Part shown: one piece after another, positions 1,897 through 15,147 of the stretch
Position numbering within the stretch: the first letter of the stretch is position 1
Layout: each line of letters starts with the position of its first letter
From: Candidatus Zixiibacteriota bacterium
Lineage (GTDB): Bacteria; Zixibacteria; MSB-5A5; UBA10806
Direction: 5' to 3'
Assembly (NCBI GenBank): GCA_024641335.1
Contig: JAHEDG010000019.1
Span: 1-47,740, forward strand
DNA: 47,740 bases
Notes under the pieces: generated by a model
Told to the model about the DNA's origin: nothing
The model's input: the letters and a program-made list of their open reading frames with translations, nothing else
Databases searched by the model: none
Position numbers and translations under genes: made by a program

Positions 1897-4491
1897 TCAG
1901 CCGTTCCGGTCTTTGGCCTCCGCCATGCGTCTGAAAACTGCTACCAGTGAACCGGCCACAATAAGAAGAAAACCGATCCAGACCAGGTTGATCATCGGCT
2001 TGGTGGAAATCTCTATGGATGCCAGAGCCGGCATAGTCGGCGGATGAAACATGATTTGGGCCACGTTTTCTCTGGTATTCAGATCGAGTAAATCGATATG
2101 CCCGCCGTTAGAAAGAGCCACGGTCGACGCGGCGGATGCCGGATTAACAGCGTTATATTTCGGAGTAATCCTGATCGTGTCAGGACCGGAAATTATCGCC
2201 AGTTTCGCTCCTACTTCCAGGTCAGGGACCTTGCCTCCGGGCGAATACACGAGTATCACTGAACCGACGTCCGCGTTGATCTTCGCGATTGTCAGCGTGC
2301 CCCCTCCCGGAATACTTACATTATCCCCTTCGGGGCCATTGGCGGTAAACTGGAAAGTTGGAATAACTTCGGTTTCTTTACCTTTGTATGAAACGCTCAA
2401 TTTGGCTCCTACCTTGCCGGCCATGCTGCCTTCGTGTTCTCCCATCTGATAGCCGATAAAGGTGATTTTCCTCTGGCCGAGATCGAAAGACTTCCCCTTG
2501 ATCGCCTCGAAGTATTCAGGCTGGTTTTTTGACAGCTTTAGGGCGTTCTTATCCGAATCGTATCCTTCGAAAAGAAATTTGCTGCCCATGAAATTGACCG
2601 TTTCTCCTTTGCGAATGAAGAACGGCTGAATATCCGAAGATGATCTCTCCATCAGATTCTCAACCGATAGATAGAGATCCATCAAAGCGAATTTCTTGAT
2701 ATGAGGGGTTCTGGCATATTGAATCTGATTCCCGCGAACCATCTGCTTTGCCGTTGAGTACGCAAAAACGGTATCGTTCCCGCTGACCAGTTCGAAATAG
2801 GATCGATCCTCTTTGGGTAGAGTCTTTTCGGTGCCGGTGAACTTAATATCGAAACCGAGCGCCGAGGCGACTCCATTTTCGGGTATGGTCAGTTTCTGCC
2901 TGCCGCCGAACGTCGAGGAAAATATAAAACCAATCAGCATCATCGAGAAGCCGAAGTGGGTGATATAAGCTCCTGACATAATGAAGCTGACTTTCCATCT
3001 TTTTACCAGGAAAATCAGGTTGGTGACCACCGAGAAGAAGGCGGCGAAGAAGAATAGAAAATAAAGTATCTCCATCAAAATGACCCGGCCGGTTATTATC
3101 CCGGATCCTTTCGGCGACCAGAAGAGCGCGATCTTCTCAAATCCGAAAACTATAAATATCACCGAAATTACCAGGGAAACAGCCGTCGGAAGAATCAGCT
3201 TTCTTTTCAGAGAGGATACATCGGTTGTCCGCCAGCCTAATAAGGCGTTAAAGCCAAGCACTATGGCAAAAATGATGGCGAATACTATTCCCATCATGTT
3301 GTAATTGACCGTATCGATTGCCGCGGGTACGGGCGCGATGCTGGAGAGAAACGGAATATTCGACATTATGCTGGTTATCAGGGGAAATGAGGTCCAGATC
3401 AATACCAGCAAGGTGAACGGCAGTAGAAGAATCATAGCCAGAAATGTGGAGAACTCCTGGGATAAAATCTCGGTCCCGCTCGATGATGGTACCTTCATTT
3501 TCCAGGCGCGGTATATCCATAGTCCGTAGGATGTGATTCCCATGACTATTATTGAGGCCCACAAAAGATTATTGTATCCAAGATCGACAAATGAATGAAC
3601 CGAAAAATCGGCCAGCACGCCCGATCTGGTCAGGAATGTGCCGTAGACTATCAAAAGAAACATGGTGATCGCTAAAAATATATTAGTTCTGCGCCAGGTG
3701 CCCCGGGATTTTTCAACTACCATGCCGTGCAAAAGAGCTATCCCGGCCAGCCAGGGGATTAGCGATGAATTTTCTACCGGATCCCAGGCCCAGTAGCCGC
3801 CCCATCCGAGAGTTTCGTAAGCCCAATAACCGCCCAGAAAAATGCCAAGCCCGAGGGTCACTACCGAAAAAACTGTCCAGGGCATAGTCTGCTTGACCCA
3901 ATTATCGTATTTGTTAGTGGCCAGTGCCGCCATGGCAAACGCGAATGGTATGCATGTCGCCGCGAATCCGATAAAAACGATCGGCGGATGAATCTGCATC
4001 CAGTAATTCTGCAAAAGGGGATTAAGTCCCTGACCGTCCGCCGGAATAAAATTCAGCCTGGCGAACGGGTCCGAAACCATGGTTAATACCAGCAAAAATG
4101 TCTGGCCGAGAATATAGAAAAACATCACCCAGCCCTCGTTCTCGCCGGCCTTGCTCTTTACCCAGAATCCCAGAACCAAGCCGAATACCAGCCACATCAA
4201 AAAGGTACCCTGCTGGCCGCCCCAGAGGGCGCTGATCTTATAAAAATGCGGCCATTGATTGGGCAGATCGCTTGACGAATAACTGGTCACATAAGAATAT
4301 TGAAACTGATCGGTAAGAAATAACTGCAAAAGGTACAGAAACGATACCATGACCATCCCGAATAAAAGCCAGTAGATCACGCCGGCGCTCAATCGGAACT
4401 CCTTCATCCCCACGGCCACCAGCAGATATCCGGTCATGGATAAGATCAATGGTATGGTCGCCCAGGCTAAAAAGAAACCGCCTATTTCCAA
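1897..4491 (-). CDS. ccmF: Cytochrome c haem lyase subunit CcmF, enlarged
   Basis: CcmF is the integral-membrane haem lyase that takes haem from holo-CcmE and attaches it to apocytochrome CxxCH motifs outside the cytoplasmic membrane. The 864-residue protein has many membrane segments and the haem-handling WWD signature (WGGYWAWDPVEN, about residues 230-241). It also has WGGQQGTFLMWL (about 90-101) and the conserved histidine region ending IHPPIVFIG. It starts at TTG, with GAGG placed upstream, and lies 48 bases after ccmE. It is longer than typical proteobacterial CcmF (about 650 residues). The excess is a soluble, beta-rich region of roughly 300 residues between the last two membrane segments. 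It ends the ccm operon. Confidence 0.93.
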   Translation of the reverse strand: MEIGGFFLAWATIPLILSMTGYLLVAVGMKEFRLSAGVIYWLLFGMVMVSFLYLLQLFLTDQFQYSYVTSYSSSDLPNQWPHFYKISALWGGQQGTFLMWLVFGLVLGFWVKSKAGENEGWVMFFYILGQTFLLVLTMVSDPFARLNFIPADGQGLNPLLQNYWMQIHPPIVFIGFAATCIPFAFAMAALATNKYDNWVKQTMPWTVFSVVTLGLGIFLGGYWAYETLGWGGYWAWDPVENSSLIPWLAGIALLHGMVVEKSRGTWRRTNIFLAITMFLLIVYGTFLTRSGVLADFSVHSFVDLGYNNLLWASIIVMGITSYGLWIYRAWKMKVPSSSGTEILSQEFSTFLAMILLLPFTLLVLIWTSFPLITSIMSNIPFLSSIAPVPAAIDTVNYNMMGIVFAIIFAIVLGFNALLGWRTTDVSSLKRKLILPTAVSLVISVIFIVFGFEKIALFWSPKGSGIITGRVILMEILYFLFFFAAFFSVVTNLIFLVKRWKVSFIMSGAYITHFGFSMMLIGFIFSSTFGGRQKLTIPENGVASALGFDIKFTGTEKTLPKEDRSYFELVSGNDTVFAYSTAKQMVRGNQIQYARTPHIKKFALMDLYLSVENLMERSSSDIQPFFIRKGETVNFMGSKFLFEGYDSDKNALKLSKNQPEYFEAIKGKSFDLGQRKITFIGYQMGEHEGSMAGKVGAKLSVSYKGKETEVIPTFQFTANGPEGDNVSIPGGGTLTIAKINADVGSVILVYSPGGKVPDLEVGAKLAIISGPDTIRITPKYNAVNPASAASTVALSNGGHIDLLDLNTRENVAQIMFHPPTMPALASIEISTKPMINLVWIGFLLIVAGSLVAVFRRMAEAKDRNG

Positions 4492-4539: not shown

Positions 4540-4932
4540 TTAAGTTCCGGACTCAACGGGTTCTTCCTGATATTTCGACGGACACTTGACCAAGAGCTTC
4601 TCGGCGTAAAACGCGTCGTTGCTGTAATTGCCTATGCATACCACCGATGTGGCCTGCTCGAAATTACCCGGCTTCGTGCCATTATAAACCACTTTCATCC
4701 GGTCGCCTTTATCGTCGGTGATATAAAAGGTGAAAGCTCCTGTCTCGGTTTCATAAGTGGAGCCGGTATCCAGTATCTCTCCCATTACCTGGACATTGCC
4801 GGAAGCGGCACGGGCCTCGGTGAAGCTGACATAGCTTATCATTCCGCCTTCGGTGAAAAGACTGCTCAAGCCTACGCCGGCCGCGATTACCACTACAATA
4901 ACTGCGATCCATGTTTTCGCGTTTTTATTCAT
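4540..4932 (-). CDS. ccmE: Haem chaperone CcmE, cysteine (CxxxY) type
   Basis: This 130-residue protein has one N-terminal membrane anchor (about residues 8-20) followed by the OB-fold domain of CcmE, which carries haem covalently outside the membrane to CcmF. Classical CcmE binds haem through the histidine of an HxxxY motif. Here the motif is CPSKY, with Cys117 and Tyr121, which is the CxxxY form known from archaea and some Deltaproteobacteria. The ATG lies inside the end of ccmD (8-base overlap), so the two are probably translationally coupled. Identity is supported by size, fold pattern and position between ccmC/ccmD and ccmF. Confidence 0.9.
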   Translation of the reverse strand: MNKNAKTWIAVIVVVIAAGVGLSSLFTEGGMISYVSFTEARAASGNVQVMGEILDTGSTYETETGAFTFYITDDKGDRMKVVYNGTKPGNFEQATSVVCIGNYSNDAFYAEKLLVKCPSKYQEEPVESGT

Positions 4933-5032
4933 CTTTCTTTATCCTTTTCATTTTCAAATCGAGTGAATAGAGATAACCCCACAAGGCTACCCACCCCAGC
5001 AGCGCCACAAACATAGGTATATAATCAGACAT
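4925..5032 (-). CDS. ccmD: CcmD-like small membrane protein
   Basis: This 35-residue frame begins MSDYIPMFVALLGW, has one membrane helix (about residues 6-23), and ends in a basic stretch (LKMKRIKKDE). That is the size and layout of CcmD, which links CcmE to the CcmABC complex and aids release of holo-CcmE. Its ATG overlaps the ccmC stop by 8 bases and its stop overlaps the ccmE start by 8 bases, so it fills exactly the classical ccmC-ccmD-ccmE position. CcmD is poorly conserved, so the call rests on context, topology and length. Confidence 0.8.
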   Translation of the reverse strand: MSDYIPMFVALLGWVALWGYLYSLDLKMKRIKKDE

Positions 5033-5690
5033 GTTCCAGCTCCTTGTTTCTCTCGGCTATATCCACCGAAAGCTTGTTGATCCAGAGTAATAGGCCGATA
5101 TGCGCCAGTACCGATGGTATCAGCACGATGGCCGTCTTAAACGAAAATGTTATTATCGATCCTTCGGAGGCTCCCGTCGGTTTGGGAGCTCCGGGATGCA
5201 GCCCCGGAATTATTCTGGGCATAATAAATATGAAAAATATAGTGGACGCGAAACCTAAAATGGAATAAACGGCCGAGAGATTAGCCCGCTGATCAGGATC
5301 GATTACCGCCGAACGCAGTGCGAAATAGGCCGCATATACGATCAGAAGCATAAATATCGATGTCTCCCGGGGGTCCCAGTTCCAGTACGCGCCCCAGGTA
5401 TGTTTGGCGAATATCGCCCCCGATATGGTCGTAAGAACACAGAATATTATCCCCAGCTTTGCCGCCAGTGATTCCCTGAGATCATATTTCAGGTTTCTGG
5501 TCGCCAGATACCGGATCGAATAATACATCCCCAGACCGAAAGCCACCACCGTCCCTATAGCCATGGGAAAATGAAAATAGATTATCCGAAAAACCTCAGG
5601 ATTGTCTTCTATGGGCGTGGGAGGCGGGAATATCCAGGCCCCGACACAAACCCAGCTGATCACCAAAAGTATCGTTAGTTTCCACCACAT
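5025..5690 (-). CDS. ccmC: Haem exporter/handling protein CcmC
   Basis: CcmC binds haem at the outer membrane face and promotes its covalent loading onto CcmE. The 221-residue protein has six predicted membrane segments. The WWD motif is present as WGAYWNWDPRETS (about residues 104-116) between conserved histidine-bearing loops (YFHFPMA near the N-terminus, AHIGLL near the C-terminus). The ATG at 5690 follows AGGA with good spacing. A 137-base gap separates it from ccmB, the only sizeable gap in the operon. Confidence 0.93.
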   Translation of the reverse strand: MWWKLTILLVISWVCVGAWIFPPPTPIEDNPEVFRIIYFHFPMAIGTVVAFGLGMYYSIRYLATRNLKYDLRESLAAKLGIIFCVLTTISGAIFAKHTWGAYWNWDPRETSIFMLLIVYAAYFALRSAVIDPDQRANLSAVYSILGFASTIFFIFIMPRIIPGLHPGAPKPTGASEGSIITFSFKTAIVLIPSVLAHIGLLLWINKLSVDIAERNKELEHV

Positions 5691-5827: not shown

Positions 5828-6514
5828 CTAGTCGTTCCAAACCGTGTCGAAGAGCAAAAATCCTAAGACTGTCATAACCACCAGGTACGAAATTAAAACC
5901 TGAATTTCCATTCTGGCTTCAGCGAAGCCCAACCCTGGAATCAGGGCTTTCTTTGTGCCCGAAATAGCCATAATCAAGAGCGGCAGTATCATCGGAAACG
6001 AGATAACGGCGAACAGGGCTCCTTTCACCGATGTCTTCGAAATAATCGCCGCCACGATAGTCGTCGCTCCCACTATTCCGACGGTCCCTATCAATATCAT
6101 AGTGAAAAATAACCAGAAATTAGATATGTTCAGACCAACGAAAATTCCGAAAAGAGGCACAGTGATAATATTCAGAACCACTAACAGGACCAGGTTGAAT
6201 ATCAGTTTTCCCCCGAGAACCGCTTCCGCCGGACTGTAAAGCCGCAAAGCTAAGGCCGTTTTTGATTCCTCCTCCTTGACGAAACTCTGCGAGAGCCCGG
6301 CCAGACAGGAAAAATAGATAACAATCCAGAGAAGCGAGGCCTGCAGTACTTCGGTCAGACCCACGCCTCCGATGGCCCACGATACCGCGAAAACAGTAAC
6401 CACGGCGAACATCAGGATCGCGTTGATAGCGTATCTGGTGCGCAGCTCGCACTTGATATCCTTGCGAAAAACAGCTATCGAACGTTTAACCGAGCCTGAC
6501 GATTTCATCGGCAT
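5828..6514 (-). CDS. ccmB: Haem exporter membrane subunit CcmB
   Basis: CcmB is the membrane permease that pairs with the ATPase CcmA; the CcmAB complex drives release of holo-CcmE from CcmC. The protein (228 residues from this start) has about six membrane helices and the N-terminal FRKDIKCELRTRY segment typical of CcmB. It also has an EEESKTALALRLYSP loop resembling the family's conserved loop. It overlaps the end of ccmA. Three in-frame ATGs lie near the start (6535, 6514, 6508). The first has no ribosome site, while the other two each have a GGAG-type site about 7 bases upstream, so 6514 or 6508 is likeliest. Confidence 0.88.
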   Translation of the reverse strand: MPMKSSGSVKRSIAVFRKDIKCELRTRYAINAILMFAVVTVFAVSWAIGGVGLTEVLQASLLWIVIYFSCLAGLSQSFVKEEESKTALALRLYSPAEAVLGGKLIFNLVLLVVLNIITVPLFGIFVGLNISNFWLFFTMILIGTVGIVGATTIVAAIISKTSVKGALFAVISFPMILPLLIMAISGTKKALIPGLGFAEARMEIQVLISYLVVMTVLGFLLFDTVWND

Positions 6515-7097
6515 ACTCCAACTCCGCTCTTTCATTTGTGGCGATAACAGTTATCCCCCGGCGCGATCTGATGATCTCATCCACCAGGGCTTTGCCCGGC
6601 TCATCGAGATTGGCTGACGGTTCATCGAGAAGCAAGAGCTCCGGATCTCTTAGAAGAGCAAGGCAGTATTTCAGCCTTTGTTTCATTCCCGATGAGTAAG
6701 ATCCGGCAAAATCACTGCCCCGGCCACCGAGACCGACCAGATCCAGACGATTCTCGAGTTCTCGGGCGCTGAAATACAAACCGGAAACACCGGCGAAGAA
6801 CAAGAGATTCTCTATGGCTGTCAACTCATCGTACAAGACCAGATCGGGGGAGACCAGGCCGATATGAGGTCTGATTTCGAGGCGATTCAATTTCTGGTTG
6901 TTTACGTTCAGAATAACCCGGCCCCTGGTCGGACGGATAAACCCGCAGATTACTTTCATCAGCGTAGATTTGCCCGAACCGTTAGGCCCGGTAATCACCA
7001 GTCTTTTGCCGCAGCCAACCTCGGCGTTTATGCCTGTAAAAACGGGCCGGCCGGGATAAGACTTGGCCAGCCCGTCAAGAATCAGTTTCGAATCCAT
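6486..7097 (-). CDS. ccmA: Haem exporter ATPase CcmA
   Basis: An ABC ATPase of 203 residues with Walker A GPNGSGKST (about residues 38-46), signature SYSSGMKQR (about 133-141) and Walker B LLLLDEPSANLD. It has the short length typical of CcmA and directly precedes ccmB with overlapping frames. CcmA powers the CcmABCD complex that releases haem-loaded CcmE. It starts 54 bases after the multiheme cytochrome gene, so cytochrome and maturation genes are probably cotranscribed. Confidence 0.9.
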   Translation of the reverse strand: MDSKLILDGLAKSYPGRPVFTGINAEVGCGKRLVITGPNGSGKSTLMKVICGFIRPTRGRVILNVNNQKLNRLEIRPHIGLVSPDLVLYDELTAIENLLFFAGVSGLYFSARELENRLDLVGLGGRGSDFAGSYSSGMKQRLKYCLALLRDPELLLLDEPSANLDEPGKALVDEIIRSRRGITVIATNERAELEYADEIVRLG

Positions 7098-7151: not shown

Positions 7152-8192
7152 TCAATCGCCATGGCAATAGCCGCAGAAACCCGCTCCGGCCGTACCGGTG
7201 TTGGTATGACACATAAAACACTGATACGCGGAATCTTCATGCCACGGCCCCTCTTCCATATTGTCGATCGATTCCGGGTGAATCGGAGGATTCGTGCCCC
7301 TGACTCCATCAAAATCGGAATGGCAGACAGCGCAAACCGGGGCCTCCGTCGAATGGCAGGATGCGCAGGATTCGATATCGTTTCGAGCTTCCTGGCCATG
7401 TTCATAAGGCGGAGTCGCCCAACCGGCCATAAGATGGTTCAACGGACGCTCGCCGCCGCCCTGCTCATGACAGCTCGAACAAAACTGCTCTGTATCATGA
7501 CAACTCTGACAATCGTGAACCTTGCCCTTTGCGTCCAAACCATGCGAATAACGATAGTTCAGCTCATGAACACTGCCTGTAATATTATCCCCGGCATGAC
7601 AATCCGAGCAGAATGTCTCGGAGTGATGGCAGGATTCGCAATCCTGGCCCGCCTGGTTAGCTGAAAATTTATGCTCATGTTCCCAGCCGACAGGATGAAC
7701 CAGATTGCCATTCCTCGACGGATTAAACCTGTTTACCGAGCAATCCGAAGAAGCGCTTTCACCTTCATGGCACTTGAAACAATCATCCCATACCGGATAC
7801 CCGGCATCAGCAGATCTGCCGGTAACCTTATCAATACCCTTATGGCATGAGAGACACAGATCATTACTCTGAGATTTCTCGACATGGGCCTCGTGGGAGA
7901 AGGTCATATCGCGCCGGGGCATTTCAACTCTTTTCGGATTGGCCGGATCGGTATGGCATAACACGCAGTCTGACGGGGCTTCACTGGTAGAATGGCACTC
8001 CTCGCACTTTTTCATAGCGGGAAGATTATTGTCGGATGCCCTGTCGCTCTCGGCCACAATGTGGCAATCGACGCATTTCATTTCGACTTCAACCACATGT
8101 TTGGCATGGTTGAATTTCAAACTATCGGCCTTTTTCTGCTGGAATGATAAAAAAGCCAGGGTTATTGTAAAAAATACCGCTATCGAACTCAT
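7152..8192 (-). CDS. Exported 13-haem c-type cytochrome
   Basis: A 346-residue protein with a short N-terminal hydrophobic export segment and 13 CxxCH haem-attachment motifs, at cysteines 40, 63, 76, 113, 138, 185, 195, 228, 238, 276, 287, 325 and 340. It also has many additional histidines that could act as distal ligands. The density (one haem per about 27 residues) is typical of electron-wire cytochromes such as the MtrA or NrfH/OmcA-like groups. The ATG overlaps the stop of the upstream outer-membrane protein gene (ATGA), so the two are translationally coupled. The ccm genes needed to mature it follow directly. The likely role is electron transfer across the periplasm, perhaps inserted in the barrel; the donor and final acceptor are unknown. 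Confidence 0.92.
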   Translation of the reverse strand: MSSIAVFFTITLAFLSFQQKKADSLKFNHAKHVVEVEMKCVDCHIVAESDRASDNNLPAMKKCEECHSTSEAPSDCVLCHTDPANPKRVEMPRRDMTFSHEAHVEKSQSNDLCLSCHKGIDKVTGRSADAGYPVWDDCFKCHEGESASSDCSVNRFNPSRNGNLVHPVGWEHEHKFSANQAGQDCESCHHSETFCSDCHAGDNITGSVHELNYRYSHGLDAKGKVHDCQSCHDTEQFCSSCHEQGGGERPLNHLMAGWATPPYEHGQEARNDIESCASCHSTEAPVCAVCHSDFDGVRGTNPPIHPESIDNMEEGPWHEDSAYQCFMCHTNTGTAGAGFCGYCHGD

Positions 8193-9430
8193 TTATTGCC
8201 ACCTCCTCCGTTTTGCCGCGAATATAAATCATATTCGATTCTTCCATAAAACCGAACGTCAGAACTGTAAAAAGCATTGGTCAGGTACTGAATATCGCTT
8301 CTCAAACCCAGATTTTGCAGGAGCTCGTATCTTGCCCCAATAGAAGAGGAAAAGGCGGTTTCGGAATCAGCCTCGTCCGAATCAAGTTTATAACTGTACA
8401 TATCGATATTGGCGAATACCTCCGCTTTGTCCATGATCCGAGCCCGCAGGTTCGCGTAAACTCCGAACTTGTTCCCCGCATGTCCGTCGCTGAAAACTAT
8501 CCCGGCGGATTGAGCTTTGTACGAGCCGCCAAGGCGCATATTCAAATCCTTGCCTGAATCGAATATGGTGTAGGCAAAAAGAACCGTTCCATACATATTA
8601 TCCGATAATTTTATCGACGGTGTCAGTCTGAATTGACTGTAAGGCTCGGCTTCGACCACGGAGAAAAAGTTGTTCAGATTAAAGGTAGGATGACTATATC
8701 TGTATTCGAGCCCCACGGAATGACCCGATGAGAACGCGTACCGCGGCCGCAAACTTACCAGTTTCACTCTCCTGAATATGATATCATAGTCCAGGCGTCC
8801 CGCTGTCGAGAGGCGGTCTTTTCTATATTGAAAATCGACCCCTGCCAATTGGGAATCCGTCTCTTCATTGAAATTCCGCTGAAGATATGAAAAATTCACT
8901 TTTATCCGCTTCATTCCCTTGAATTGGACCCGGGCGCCGTAAGCGTTGCTCTGATCCCATTTGCCGATTTCATCATAGGTGTAAAAAGTCGGTCCGGGGG
9001 TCATGCCGCCGAAGAGAGTCAGGGAAAACTGTTTTCTATAATTGAACCTGGCTTTGGCTCCATCCATTGTGAAGCCCCCGATTCCCTCGTATGTGTATTG
9101 CCGTCCTGCCTTGACCGTGAATTCGTCCCCCTTGGTGGAATACTGGAGATAAGCCCCGAATACCCGAAAATCGGGGTCGGTTCCCAGCTTGGACAGGATA
9201 TCCGATGCCATTCGTCCCCTTACATAAAACGACAAACCGGGAACCAGGGCATCCCTGATATCGAGCCTGACACCCTGAAGCGACCGAACGTAATTCTGTC
9301 TTTCGGGTAATTTCGTCTGATAAGAATAAAATTCGGAGTAAATATTACCCCTGATTGTTTGCGCCGATACCGGCGCCAGCCAGCTAAAGAGGCACAGGGC
9401 TCCTGATATCGCGGTAATTATTTTTCGCAA
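8189..9430 (-). CDS. Outer-membrane beta-barrel (porin-like) protein, probable partner of the 13-haem cytochrome
   Basis: A 413-residue protein with a clear signal peptide (MRKIITAISG start, cleavage after VSAQ near residue 24). Alternating amphipathic strands ending in aromatic residues follow for the whole length, as in an outer-membrane barrel of perhaps 16-18 strands. It starts at TTG with a strong GGAGG site 5 bases upstream. The coupled gene encodes a 13-haem cytochrome, so by analogy with porin-cytochrome conduits (MtrAB, Geobacter porin-cytochrome complexes) it may sheath the cytochrome. It is shorter than MtrB and shows no MtrB-specific motif that I recognise. An ordinary porin is the alternative. 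Confidence 0.78.
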   Translation of the reverse strand: MRKIITAISGALCLFSWLAPVSAQTIRGNIYSEFYSYQTKLPERQNYVRSLQGVRLDIRDALVPGLSFYVRGRMASDILSKLGTDPDFRVFGAYLQYSTKGDEFTVKAGRQYTYEGIGGFTMDGAKARFNYRKQFSLTLFGGMTPGPTFYTYDEIGKWDQSNAYGARVQFKGMKRIKVNFSYLQRNFNEETDSQLAGVDFQYRKDRLSTAGRLDYDIIFRRVKLVSLRPRYAFSSGHSVGLEYRYSHPTFNLNNFFSVVEAEPYSQFRLTPSIKLSDNMYGTVLFAYTIFDSGKDLNMRLGGSYKAQSAGIVFSDGHAGNKFGVYANLRARIMDKAEVFANIDMYSYKLDSDEADSETAFSSSIGARYELLQNLGLRSDIQYLTNAFYSSDVRFYGRIEYDLYSRQNGGGGNK

Positions 9431-9557: not shown

Positions 9558-9586
9558 AAAAAAAGAGGAGCCTCTAAAAGCTCCTC
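9558..9586 (-). terminator. Rho-independent terminator of lepB
   Basis: On the minus strand a GAGGAGC stem (7 bp, 9586-9580 with 9571-9565) with an 8-base loop is followed by seven T residues. It lies 25 bases after the lepB stop, the classical arrangement. Confidence 0.9.
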
Positions 9587-9611
9587 CCTGAAAAATTAGA
9601 TTGAGAAATCC

Positions 9612-10361
9612 TTATTTTATCGGACGGCCGATTCTCGACCAGCGTACCCTTTCGGGGAAGTGGTAGACATTATAAGCAACGCTCTTTAATATCGAAAAAG
9701 GATCTCCGGCGGATACCTCCGGCGGACCTGATGTTCCCATTGGGGGGTGATCTTTTTCGTTGTCCAGCTTGGGGTCCCACGGATTCCAGGACCAGTGGAT
9801 AATCATGGCTTTGCCCTGAACCAGTTTCCGATCCAGGAAGCCCCAAAAACGCGAATCGGCGGAATTGTCGCGGTTATCGCCCATCATGAAGAGCATACCT
9901 TTGGGAACCTCTATCTCGGGCATATTGTCACGGACATTGCGCCCCCACGACCCGGTATTATAGTATGGATATATCTCGCTATCCATAAATTGCCCGTTCT
10001 CCGGCAGCGCTATTGCCTTGCCGTCGACATATACCTGCTTATTCTCGATCTTTATTTTCTGCCCCTCGACCGCTATGCAGCGCTTAATGTAGTTGATGGA
10101 TGGATTAAACGGGTATTTGAATATGACTATATCCCCGGGTTTCGGGTCGCTTATGGCCGGCAATCTGATATCCGTGAACGGAATAGGCAGCCGCATTCCG
10201 TAAACGAATTTGTTGGCCAGAAGAAAATCCCCTACCAGAAGAGTATTCTCCATGGAACTGGACGGTATCTTATATGCTTCCACCACCGATATCTTGATCA
10301 TCAGGGCCATGATTAACGCTATCCCCAAAGATTTTGTCCAATCCCAGATAATCGCTGCCAT
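9612..10361 (-). CDS. lepB: Signal peptidase I
   Basis: Membrane-bound serine protease that removes signal peptides from proteins leaving through Sec or Tat. From the chosen start it has 249 residues. It has an N-terminal membrane anchor, the catalytic serine in PSSSMENTL, the general-base lysine in YIKRCIAVEG, and the box E motif GDNRDNSADSR. The ATG at 10361 is chosen because GGAGGAG lies 7 bases upstream; an upstream in-frame start at 10415 has no such site. It is a single-gene unit with its own promoter candidate and terminator, divergent from efp. Confidence 0.95.
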   Translation of the reverse strand: MAAIIWDWTKSLGIALIMALMIKISVVEAYKIPSSSMENTLLVGDFLLANKFVYGMRLPIPFTDIRLPAISDPKPGDIVIFKYPFNPSINYIKRCIAVEGQKIKIENKQVYVDGKAIALPENGQFMDSEIYPYYNTGSWGRNVRDNMPEIEVPKGMLFMMGDNRDNSADSRFWGFLDRKLVQGKAMIIHWSWNPWDPKLDNEKDHPPMGTSGPPEVSAGDPFSILKSVAYNVYHFPERVRWSRIGRPIK

Positions 10362-10423
10362 TTGGATTCTCCTCCGAATCGTTACTTTTAAAATGCCGCG
10401 AACTTTCGAAAACACGCTAATTC

Positions 10424-11923: not shown

Positions 11924-13096
11924 ATGCGGCCTCCAAAATCTGAATCCTTTATCGACAGACGCCGATTCCTGCGGGTAACAGGGGTTTGCCTCGGCTGCTC
12001 ATGTCTGCCGGTTTCATCGTCCGGAATACTTGATGAGATCGGGTTCGGTTCCCGATACGCGGCCGCTGACGATATCCCTACCGATGATCATCATAGAGCC
12101 GAGTTTTACAGAAAGCTGGATGCCCGTGAAATCGAATGCCTCCTCTGCCCGAGAAAGTGCCAGGTAGGGGATAAGGAGCGAGGTTATTGCGGTGTCAGGG
12201 AGAATATCGATGGCGAATATTATACGCTCGTATACGGCCATCCCTGCTCGGCCAATATCGACCCTATTGAAAAGAAACCGCTTTTTCACTACCTGCCCGG
12301 TACACAGGCATTTTCCATTGCCACCGCGGGATGCAATCTCAACTGCAAATTCTGCCAGAATTGGCAGATCTCCCAGTTTCGCCCCGAACAGATTCAGAGC
12401 ATGAGGATTTCCCCATACCAGATAGCTTCAATGGCCGCTGAGTACGAATGCCGATCTATCGCCTACACTTATTCCGAACCGACCATCTTCTATGAATACA
12501 TGAAGGACTGCGCTATTGAAGGCAATAAGAACGCAATTGGTTCGGTTATGATCTCCGCCGGCTTCATCGAGAAAGAACCGTTGGAAAAACTCCTTCCTCA
12601 CCTGGCCGCGGTCAAAATCGACCTGAAATCGTTCAGGCAGCAATACTATGACGAGATTTGCGGCGGTGATCTTCAACCGGTTCTGGATACCCTGGCAACC
12701 CTCCATGAATCAGGAAAATGGTTCGAGATTGTCTACCTGATGGTGCCGACGCTCAACGACGATCCGCGGGAAATAGAAGATCTTTGCGATTGGATAATCA
12801 GCCGGCTCGGTCCGGATATTCCGATTCATTTTACCCGGTTTCATCCTCAGTATCTATTGAAAAACCTTCCGGCCACTCCGGTGAGAAGTCTGGAGATCGC
12901 CTATGAGATCGCCCGAAAGAAGGGGATAAATTTCCCTTATATAGGCAATGTTTATGGCCATCGAGGGGAGAACACTTTCTGCCCCGGATGCGGCCGGGTC
13001 GTTATCGAAAGGCAGGGGTTCAGAATCGACAGGATATCAATAGATAACGGGTCATGCGCTGAGTGCGGACGGCAAATTCCCGGCGTTTGGACGTGA
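11924..13096 (+). CDS. AmmeMemoRadiSam-type radical SAM enzyme (AmrS family) with a twin-arginine signal
   Basis: The 390-residue protein carries the radical SAM motif CNLNCKFC (Cys137, Cys141, Cys144). An upstream cysteine cluster (C72, C75, C79, C89), IDPIEKKPL and two C-terminal CxxCG knuckles mark it as the AmrS family. The family often co-occurs with MEMO1 and AMMECR1 homologues; its reaction is unknown. The N-terminus has RRRFLR (residues 12-17), a hydrophobic cysteine-rich stretch and a plausible AAA cleavage site near residue 48, which fits a Tat export signal. Tat would suit a protein folded around an iron-sulphur cluster. It overlaps the next gene by four bases (GTGA). A second family member without this leader lies at 41660-42652. 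Confidence 0.85.
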   Translation: MRPPKSESFIDRRRFLRVTGVCLGCSCLPVSSSGILDEIGFGSRYAAADDIPTDDHHRAEFYRKLDAREIECLLCPRKCQVGDKERGYCGVRENIDGEYYTLVYGHPCSANIDPIEKKPLFHYLPGTQAFSIATAGCNLNCKFCQNWQISQFRPEQIQSMRISPYQIASMAAEYECRSIAYTYSEPTIFYEYMKDCAIEGNKNAIGSVMISAGFIEKEPLEKLLPHLAAVKIDLKSFRQQYYDEICGGDLQPVLDTLATLHESGKWFEIVYLMVPTLNDDPREIEDLCDWIISRLGPDIPIHFTRFHPQYLLKNLPATPVRSLEIAYEIARKKGINFPYIGNVYGHRGENTFCPGCGRVVIERQGFRIDRISIDNGSCAECGRQIPGVWT

Positions 13097-15147
13097 AAAT
13101 TAAATCACCAGGATTTTTCGATGCGGTTCTATTGGGCGTTTGTTCCATCGCCGCCCAAACCGTATTCGTCCGGCTGATACTCTCATCCCCAACGGCCGGA
13201 GAGCTATTCGCCGCCATAGCCATAGGTTCATGGATCGGAGCTGTCGGTCTGGGAGCCTTTTTGGGTGGAAAAATCAGCCCGGATCGACTATCCCGGCTCT
13301 GGCTATTCTCCTCGCTGGTTAAGCTTCCCGCCGCTTTTCTGATTTTTATATACCCTGTATTTTTTACCGGGATCCTCGATCCTCTCCGATTCCCGCCAAT
13401 CGTTCTCATAGGAATAGCTCCCCAGGGAATCTTATACGGCCTGCTTTTCGCCGTACTGATAAAACCATATTTTAAAACCTCACAAGTCTATCGGGTCGAA
13501 GCCGCCGGATCTTTTGCGGGAGGGATTTTGGCGGTAGTCTGGCTCTTTTTCGGCCTGGGAGATTTTGGCCTGCTGATCTTCCTTTCCTTTGTAGAGTTCT
13601 CCAGAACTATCCGTGGCAGGCTGGTCCCTGCGGCCCTGGGTCTGGCTGGATTAGTTCTCGGTATGGCCGTAAATCCTTTTCTTGATCGGTTAGCGTCCGA
13701 TATCCGCTGGCCGGGCTATGAGACCATAAGAGTAGCTCATGGTTTTTCAGGCCTGTGGGTTCGACATAGACGGCAGGATCAGGTAATGATCTCTCATAAT
13801 GGCAAGGTTGCCGGCTTTGCCCCTGACAGGGTATCGTCAGAGGAAGCCCTGCTCTGGCCGTTTATCTTCAAGCCGCGATCCACGCGGATACTACTTATCG
13901 GTTTCGAGGGATTGGGAGTGGCAGAATTCCTGCCCGGCAGGTGTAACGCGGTTTTTCTTGCCGGTGATGCCGCCTATCTGAAGCTCGCCGATACGGAAAA
14001 CCTCGAATATGTTGTCGCCGATCCTCTATATTTCTCGGCCTCCGAGAAGTTCGATATCGTCTGCGTTCGGTTGCCGGGTTCCCTTGGTCTCGGCGATTAC
14101 CGGATGGAAACCGATCTGTTTTTCAAAAAATGCCGATCATTTCTCAAAGATGACGGCATACTTTTTGTCAGCGCCGTATCCGATGAAAATTATATAGCCG
14201 GCAACCTGGCTCTATATCTATCGTCTTTAAAAAATACTCTGGAGCCATATTTCGGGCTTGTTCTGGTCATCCCGGGCCCGCGAGCCGGATTTCTCTGTTT
14301 TAAAAACCCGGGATCAGGAGATATATGCCTGGACCCTGTTTCCGGATTTCATCAATTGAATTTCGAATCGCCGTACTTCAATATGCCCCTGATTTTCAAC
14401 CGACTTGCCCCTTTCCGCTTAAGTAATTTTACTCAATCTATTACGGTCGAATCAGATCCTAATACTGTTTTCAAACCCTCTACGGCGCTGAATTATCTTA
14501 TCTGGCAGGGTTCCGCGTTCGGTAAATTCGGCCGATTATTCAAAGTATATAAAAATCCCTACCCGCTCCTCGGCCTCCTGTTGATTTTCGCTGTACCTGT
14601 CGCCATTGCCAGGCTGAAAAAAACCGAATTTCCCAGTATATCAGGGGTTTTTAACTTCGGATTTCTGGGGATGGCCCTCGAGATTTCCGTTTTGTACCTC
14701 TTCCAGTTGATTTTCGGGCTTTTGCATCTTCATATAGGGCTGATTATTTCTGTTTTCATGGCCGGTATGGCCTTAGGCGCTTATTCTGCCGATATAATTA
14801 AACGATGGATAATCCCGGCGGCGGTTTTTACGGCGATCGCCGCCATCTTTAGTGTGAGGTTTCTGTTGAACGCGGAATTTGGCTTGATCGTATCTCTTAT
14901 TATGTTGTATATGATTTCTATAGTTTCCGGATTTTCCACCGGGGCCGGATTCGCGTTCTTCGCGAATATCGATGCCGGCGGTCGGGGAAGAGGCGCAACT
15001 CTTTACGGGGCTGATCTTTATGGCGCAATGCTGGCAGCCCTGATCGTCCCCGGCATCTTGATATCATCGGGGACAAATGTTCTGATCGCGGTTATGCTGC
15101 TCGTGGCGATTCCAGCCTCGGCAACTTTATCCGCCAAAAAGGAGTAA
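13093..15147 (+). CDS. Membrane protein with a degenerate spermidine-synthase-like domain
   Basis: About 684 residues in three parts: roughly six N-terminal membrane helices, a central Rossmann-like domain resembling spermidine synthase or an SAM-dependent methyltransferase, and a C-terminal block of about seven helices. The nucleotide-binding loop reads ILLIGFEGLGVAEFL instead of the usual GGGDGG pattern, and the acidic catalytic motif is not evident, so spermidine synthase activity is doubtful. The GTG start at 13093 overlaps the previous stop as GTGA; an ATG at 13063 in the same frame is the alternative. Tight coupling to the Tat-type radical SAM enzyme suggests a shared function at the membrane. 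The substrate is unknown. Confidence 0.7.
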   Translation: MKIKSPGFFDAVLLGVCSIAAQTVFVRLILSSPTAGELFAAIAIGSWIGAVGLGAFLGGKISPDRLSRLWLFSSLVKLPAAFLIFIYPVFFTGILDPLRFPPIVLIGIAPQGILYGLLFAVLIKPYFKTSQVYRVEAAGSFAGGILAVVWLFFGLGDFGLLIFLSFVEFSRTIRGRLVPAALGLAGLVLGMAVNPFLDRLASDIRWPGYETIRVAHGFSGLWVRHRRQDQVMISHNGKVAGFAPDRVSSEEALLWPFIFKPRSTRILLIGFEGLGVAEFLPGRCNAVFLAGDAAYLKLADTENLEYVVADPLYFSASEKFDIVCVRLPGSLGLGDYRMETDLFFKKCRSFLKDDGILFVSAVSDENYIAGNLALYLSSLKNTLEPYFGLVLVIPGPRAGFLCFKNPGSGDICLDPVSGFHQLNFESPYFNMPLIFNRLAPFRLSNFTQSITVESDPNTVFKPSTALNYLIWQGSAFGKFGRLFKVYKNPYPLLGLLLIFAVPVAIARLKKTEFPSISGVFNFGFLGMALEISVLYLFQLIFGLLHLHIGLIISVFMAGMALGAYSADIIKRWIIPAAVFTAIAAIFSVRFLLNAEFGLIVSLIMLYMISIVSGFSTGAGFAFFANIDAGGRGRGATLYGADLYGAMLAALIVPGILISSGTNVLIAVMLLVAIPASATLSAKKE

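Follow-up and report, generated by a model that had tools for sequence, protein, structure and literature searches.

The gene pair at positions 7152 to 9430 of the window (the whole stretch of DNA that was analysed, 47,740 nucleotides from a Candidatus Zixiibacteriota bacterium) very probably encodes a Pcc conduit of the OmbB/OmaB type, in which an outer-membrane barrel would form a sleeve threaded by a 13-haem cytochrome, with a chain of haems running from the periplasm to the cell surface. On the basis of its sequence, the pair is read as neither Mtr-type nor a new subtype, but as an expected addition to a known system. The cell is thus probably able to pass electrons to or from its surroundings.

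Both genes lie on the minus strand, with the barrel gene (9430 to 8189) ahead of the cytochrome gene (8192 to 7152). The gene of the putative OmbB-type barrel (8189..9430) encodes 413 residues, about 390 of which remain in the mature protein. It starts with a TTG codon preceded by a GGAGG ribosome site, and the signal peptide is clear and of the ordinary type (MRKIITAISGALCLFSWLAPVSA, followed by Q). The c-type cytochrome gene (7152..8192) encodes 346 residues with 13 CX2CH motifs and matches to Cytochrome_C7 and MtrC/MtrF-like domains, and its start overlaps the stop of the barrel gene in an ATGA (8189..8192, minus strand). An earlier note on this DNA had given the coordinates, the lengths, the 13 haems, the overlap and the signal peptide of the barrel, and all of these proved correct when the sequence was read again.

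The barrel belongs to no Pfam or NCBIfam family above cut-off and its similarity to general barrel domains is weak. The MtrB_PioB models of Pfam and NCBIfam do not match it at E<=1, and its profile matches no PDB chain at E<=10. The AlphaFold model computed from the single sequence (pLDDT 31, pTM 0.20) is unusable. A home-made amphipathicity score, which is a rough method, was averaged over 52 homologues; it identifies 21 candidate strands in the mature barrel, compared to 7.9 +/- 2.2 in column shuffles. The size of the barrel and these approximately 21 candidates fit the Pcc range of 18–22 strands, far below MtrB: barrels of the MtrB_PioB type have 26 strands (PMC12133095), or 28 predicted motifs (PMC4245776).

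The N-terminus of the cytochrome is short and signal-like and lacks basic residues, traits that it shares with its closest relatives. Eight of its haems (C138, C185, C195, C228, C238, C276, C287 and C325) are collinear in the alignment with those of OmaB-like proteins. The protein is thus predicted to consist of an OmaB-like 8-haem core extended by four N-terminal haems (C40, C63, C76 and C113) and one C-terminal haem (C339). C113 is common to the window cytochrome and its 10-haem relatives. The full set of haems within the phylum comprises about 14 sites, and the 14th is lost in the window, where both the alignment and the DNA give CSVNR at residues 151–155 instead of CXXCH.

Profile searches with the barrel and the cytochrome were carried out in 133 genomes of the window's phylum, a search for the pair in related genomes having been proposed in the earlier note. 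A relative of the barrel lies just upstream, on the same strand, for 31 out of 31 strong relatives of the cytochrome (full-length or cut by a contig end, in 30 genomes), and the gap between the matched stretches ranges from 3 to 246 bases. Two of the 33 strong barrel matches have no cytochrome, one at a contig end and the other a fragment of 104 columns in a genome that is 64% complete; this count leaves out weak barrel matches (E 1e-4 to 1e-9, about 120 columns), which probably belong to other barrel families. The genome G032 has two pairs, whose barrels are 21% and whose cytochromes are 32% identical to each other. The two pairs have separate nearest relatives in other genomes (38% identity for the barrel and 56% for the cytochrome in one case, 93% and 95% in the other), and therefore barrel and cytochrome travel together. 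The two form a unit. The viral contigs searched contain no relatives of the pair, and a scan of genome contigs returned just two weak Desulfovibrio multihaem matches.

This linkage bears on the idea that the barrel is a generic porin which happens to stand beside a periplasmic multihaem carrier and to be co-transcribed with ccm genes by chance. The weak similarity to general barrel domains is in line with that idea, as is the resemblance of the N-terminal part of the cytochrome to soluble c7 and ActA-type cytochromes, but the linkage in 31 of 31 cases across the phylum, which recurs in a second phylum, largely refutes it and makes it scarcely credible. The relatives of the barrel are linked to cytochromes across the phylum and are not generic porins, so that the conduit proposed in the earlier note withstands this objection.

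The second phylum is the one to which a Desulfovibrio genome belongs: of 395 genomes searched in it, 54 contain this barrel family (E to 2e-45). Twenty of these loci were read. A homologous cytochrome with 8 to 11 haems stands beside the barrel in 18 of them (E to 3e-35). A third multihaem ORF is present in most loci and frequently carries a lipobox. Some loci consist of a barrel of 403–404 residues, an 8-haem cytochrome of 223–237 residues and a 12-haem lipoprotein of 741–757 residues, and one genome has this cluster twice in tandem. The window barrel is in the same size class as the barrels of about 403 residues in the barrel/8-11-haem/lipoprotein clusters, and its identity to the barrels of these clusters is about 18–21%. 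Judging from gene order, size and haem numbers, the clusters of the second phylum have the architecture published for OmbB, OmaB (8 haems) and OmcB (12 haems) from Geobacter (PMC4245776, PMC4589669). The OmbB-OmaB-OmcB complex has been isolated and passed electrons across proteoliposomes (PMC4589669).

Pcc porins are much smaller than MtrB and their periplasmic partners have 5–14 haems (PMC4245776). The window pair likewise has adjacent porin-like and multihaem genes, a small barrel, and 13 haems, within that range. The gene of the usual outer-membrane lipoprotein cytochrome is missing from the cluster; it is a feature of most, not all, members (PMC4245776). Mtr-type membership was rejected in view of the lack of a match to the MtrB model at E<=1, of the 13 haems instead of 10, and of the score of the decahaem model TIGR03508, which is far below cut-off for this cytochrome. 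The profile of the cytochrome gives a weak match (E 7e-5) with the MtrAB entry 6r2q_A. The strict linkage and the clear homology of both proteins to clusters of OmbB-OmaB-OmcB architecture thus lend good support to the conduit that the earlier note had suggested. Its idea of a new subtype is not retained: the yardstick was MtrB and MtrA, which is the wrong family, and two-gene pcc clusters with small barrels and 12–14 haems were published in 2014 (PMC4245776).

The pair is followed, on the same strand, by ccmA, ccmB, ccmC, ccmE and ccmF. They encode a CcmA-like haem exporter ATPase (6486..7097; ABC_tran; TIGR01189 at 1e-29, below the curated cut-off), CcmB (5828..6535; PF03379, 1e-18), CcmC (5025..5690; PF01578, 9e-25; TIGR01191, 3e-23), CcmE (4540..4932; PF03100, 4e-16) and a CcmF/NrfE-type haem lyase of 864 residues (1897..4491; TIGR00353, 1e-74; PF16327), all on the minus strand. 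This CcmE is the only one found in a whole-genome search, and the pair therefore looks like the head of an apparent operon which carries the only System I haem-attachment set of the genome. The arrangement joins a multihaem cytochrome to genes that are needed to attach haem. Upstream, a terminator-like hairpin of 12 pairs followed by a T run (9562..9589, minus strand; consensus match only) comes after a signal peptidase gene (9612–10415, signal peptidase I as read from the sequence) and likely marks the edge of the operon. The window also contains, at 13063–15147, an ORF of 694 residues that resembles a membrane protein and matches nothing in Pfam at E<=1.

The statement in the earlier note that the surface cytochrome is absent here holds locally, since the next genes are those of the ccm set. 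In G031, which belongs to another family of the same class (f11), the gene order runs from barrel and cytochrome through a 6-haem lipoprotein to ccmA, ccmB, ccmC, ccmE and ccmF, where the ccm genes are named by their resemblance to those of the window. The genomes of the window's family (its own, G002, and G004 as far as the contig end) have the same order minus the lipoprotein. A pair that heads an apparent ccmABCEF operon without the lipoprotein seen in another family is specific to the window's lineage. A displaced copy of the lipoprotein was considered and rejected: the whole genome of the window lacks the PF09698 domain, and no match in it to the lipoprotein that follows the pair in relatives is better than E 5e-4. 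Several giant multihaem cytochromes, unrelated to the lipoprotein, are encoded elsewhere in this genome, and its contig C68 encodes two small cytochromes that look like lipoproteins, one with 7 haems and one with 5. It is possible that a hand-over partner is encoded elsewhere in the genome.

The comparison with G031, whose 6-haem lipoprotein sits between the cytochrome and ccmA, could also mean that the window contains a decaying pcc cluster, which has lost its surface lipoprotein and whose two remaining genes are on their way out or have another periplasmic job. The haem site that has no CXXCH and the occurrence of two genomes of the same family with neither gene would agree with decay. However, the two reading frames are uninterrupted in the window as well as in its relative G002, where they are 37–48% identical and the shared invariant residues are kept, and two-gene pcc clusters with 12–14 haems are known elsewhere (PMC4245776). 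Decay is accordingly regarded as distinctly improbable.

In 15 loci of relatives, the third gene encodes 6, 11, 16, 21 or 56 CX2CH motifs, which corresponds to 1 + 5n with n = 1, 2, 3, 4 or 11 (the count of 6 in G070 is shortened by the end of the contig). The CX3-4CH motifs are spaced by 191–198 residues in the eight lipoproteins measured, with the exception of two extra matches which come 97 residues on, near the C-terminus. The repeated module has about 192 residues and six haems (five CX2CH and one CX3-4CH), and the modules are arranged head-to-tail. The largest protein, a lipoprotein of 2252 residues from G032, has 56 CX2CH and 11 CX3-4CH; ten aligned modules are 58–80% identical, and PF09698 (CX4CH...CXXCH) occurs in 11 copies, compared to 3 in a three-module protein. 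These modular lipoprotein cytochromes are encoded at L050:2255-9013 (minus strand, contig C43 of G032), L054:8115-9194, L128:6463-7995, L131:6506-8593, L132:6912-9563 and L136:8794-11460. It appears from these sequences that the surface part lengthens by whole six-haem modules, from one to eleven, which was unexpected; a narrow literature search found no description of such a modular lengthening.

Shi et al. proposed that the higher number of periplasmic haems in two-gene clusters offsets the missing surface part (PMC4245776). The phylum of the window does not support this idea, because a surface gene accompanies some partners with 13–14 haems and is absent beside others. Tentatively, the clusters could be arranged as a graded Pcc series, from 0 to 11 six-haem modules of near-equal length, in which the window would be the zero end: its 13-haem cytochrome would be the whole wire, made with its own haem-attachment machinery. 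The natural variants of the phylum (0, 1, 2, 3, 4 or 11 surface modules, with or without ccm) could be used to test how much wire a conduit needs.

If the pair is a conduit, electrons from menaquinol would pass through periplasmic cytochromes to the 13-haem wire, which would cross the outer membrane inside the barrel, the flow being most likely outward. The five extra haems may extend the wire far enough for the conduit to do without a surface cytochrome of its own; alternatively, the 13-haem cytochrome may pass its electrons to an unlinked multihaem cytochrome. By analogy with Geobacter, where the removal of any one of OmbB, OmaB and OmcB abolishes function (PMC4589669), the pair alone might not work, since the third gene is missing here. 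The relatives G047, G055 and G032, in which the pair adjoins a Rieske/cytochrome b/9-haem cluster, point to a connection with the quinone pool. Contig C33 of the window's genome encodes a cytochrome b and a 9-haem protein which share 56% and 46% identity, respectively, with their G032 counterparts, and a Rieske protein alongside. The region (L087:5542-13316) encodes Rieske, cytochrome b, 9-haem, 17-haem NapC-type, 8-haem, 4Fe-4S and NrfD proteins and is likely an entry for electrons from quinol to the periplasm.

The same conduit might run inward and feed an oxygen-reducing chain with electrons from a donor outside the cell, for instance Fe(II), whose uptake is the role proposed for MtoAB and PioAB. 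A pair without a surface cytochrome resembles these systems, which lack MtrC (PMC6344600), and the genome may respire oxygen: sequence inspection and an ActA-type match point to a locus like that of alternative complex III, with oxidase-like genes after it. However, the homologous Geobacter system works outward (PMC4589669), and the Rieske, cytochrome b and 9-haem neighbours in relatives suggest a quinol-linked route, though not its direction. Inward flow is thus considered unlikely, and outward flow from menaquinol is preferred.

Other loci of the genome drew attention. A match on contig C10 looks like the ActA of the alternative complex III-like locus. On contig C93, a 452-residue ORF that shares ATGA with a 13-haem gene (L091:6788-9285) is not a second pair, but NrfD, in an inner-membrane complex. 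On contig C8 (L064:1-2334), a repetitive multihaem cytochrome is cut by the contig end to a fragment with 9+ haems, which is followed by a 544-residue protein with a weak match to the barrel profile (E 6e-6), a possible second conduit. Contig C4 (L062:235-10251) encodes adjacent cytochromes with 26 and 16 haems, together with a 6-haem cytochrome, an exported-looking protein of 698 residues and a PPIC-type isomerase; similar ORFs with 17 and 16 haems immediately precede the conduit pair in L132.

These results extend the OmbB-type conduit to another phylum, where 30 of the 133 genomes searched have the pair, and suggest that extracellular electron transfer occurs in this phylum. MtrAB, MtoAB and PioAB follow the same principle, a multihaem cytochrome in a barrel which may work without a third part, but the window barrel has only 413 residues and no MtrB_PioB match at E<=1, and its partner has 13 haems, not 10. 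The ExtABCD, ExtEFG and ExtHIJKL conduits of Geobacter are like the window pair in that their barrels have 18–21 predicted transmembrane segments and two of the three have 12-haem periplasmic partners; they are reported to have no homology to the OmcB complex (PMC6148476). Geobacter OmbB-OmaB-OmcB has the same order, barrel then multihaem cytochrome, a barrel of about 400 residues and the 8-haem core, the homology being judged on clusters of like architecture, whereas the window cytochrome has 13 haems against 8, an OmcB-like lipoprotein is missing, and the pair sits in an apparent operon with ccmABCEF. The two-gene pcc clusters of Anaeromyxobacter and Ca. Kuenenia, as far as can be told from their published description, also have a small porin, a periplasmic cytochrome of 338–344 residues with 12–14 haems, and, like the window, no surface cytochrome (PMC4245776).
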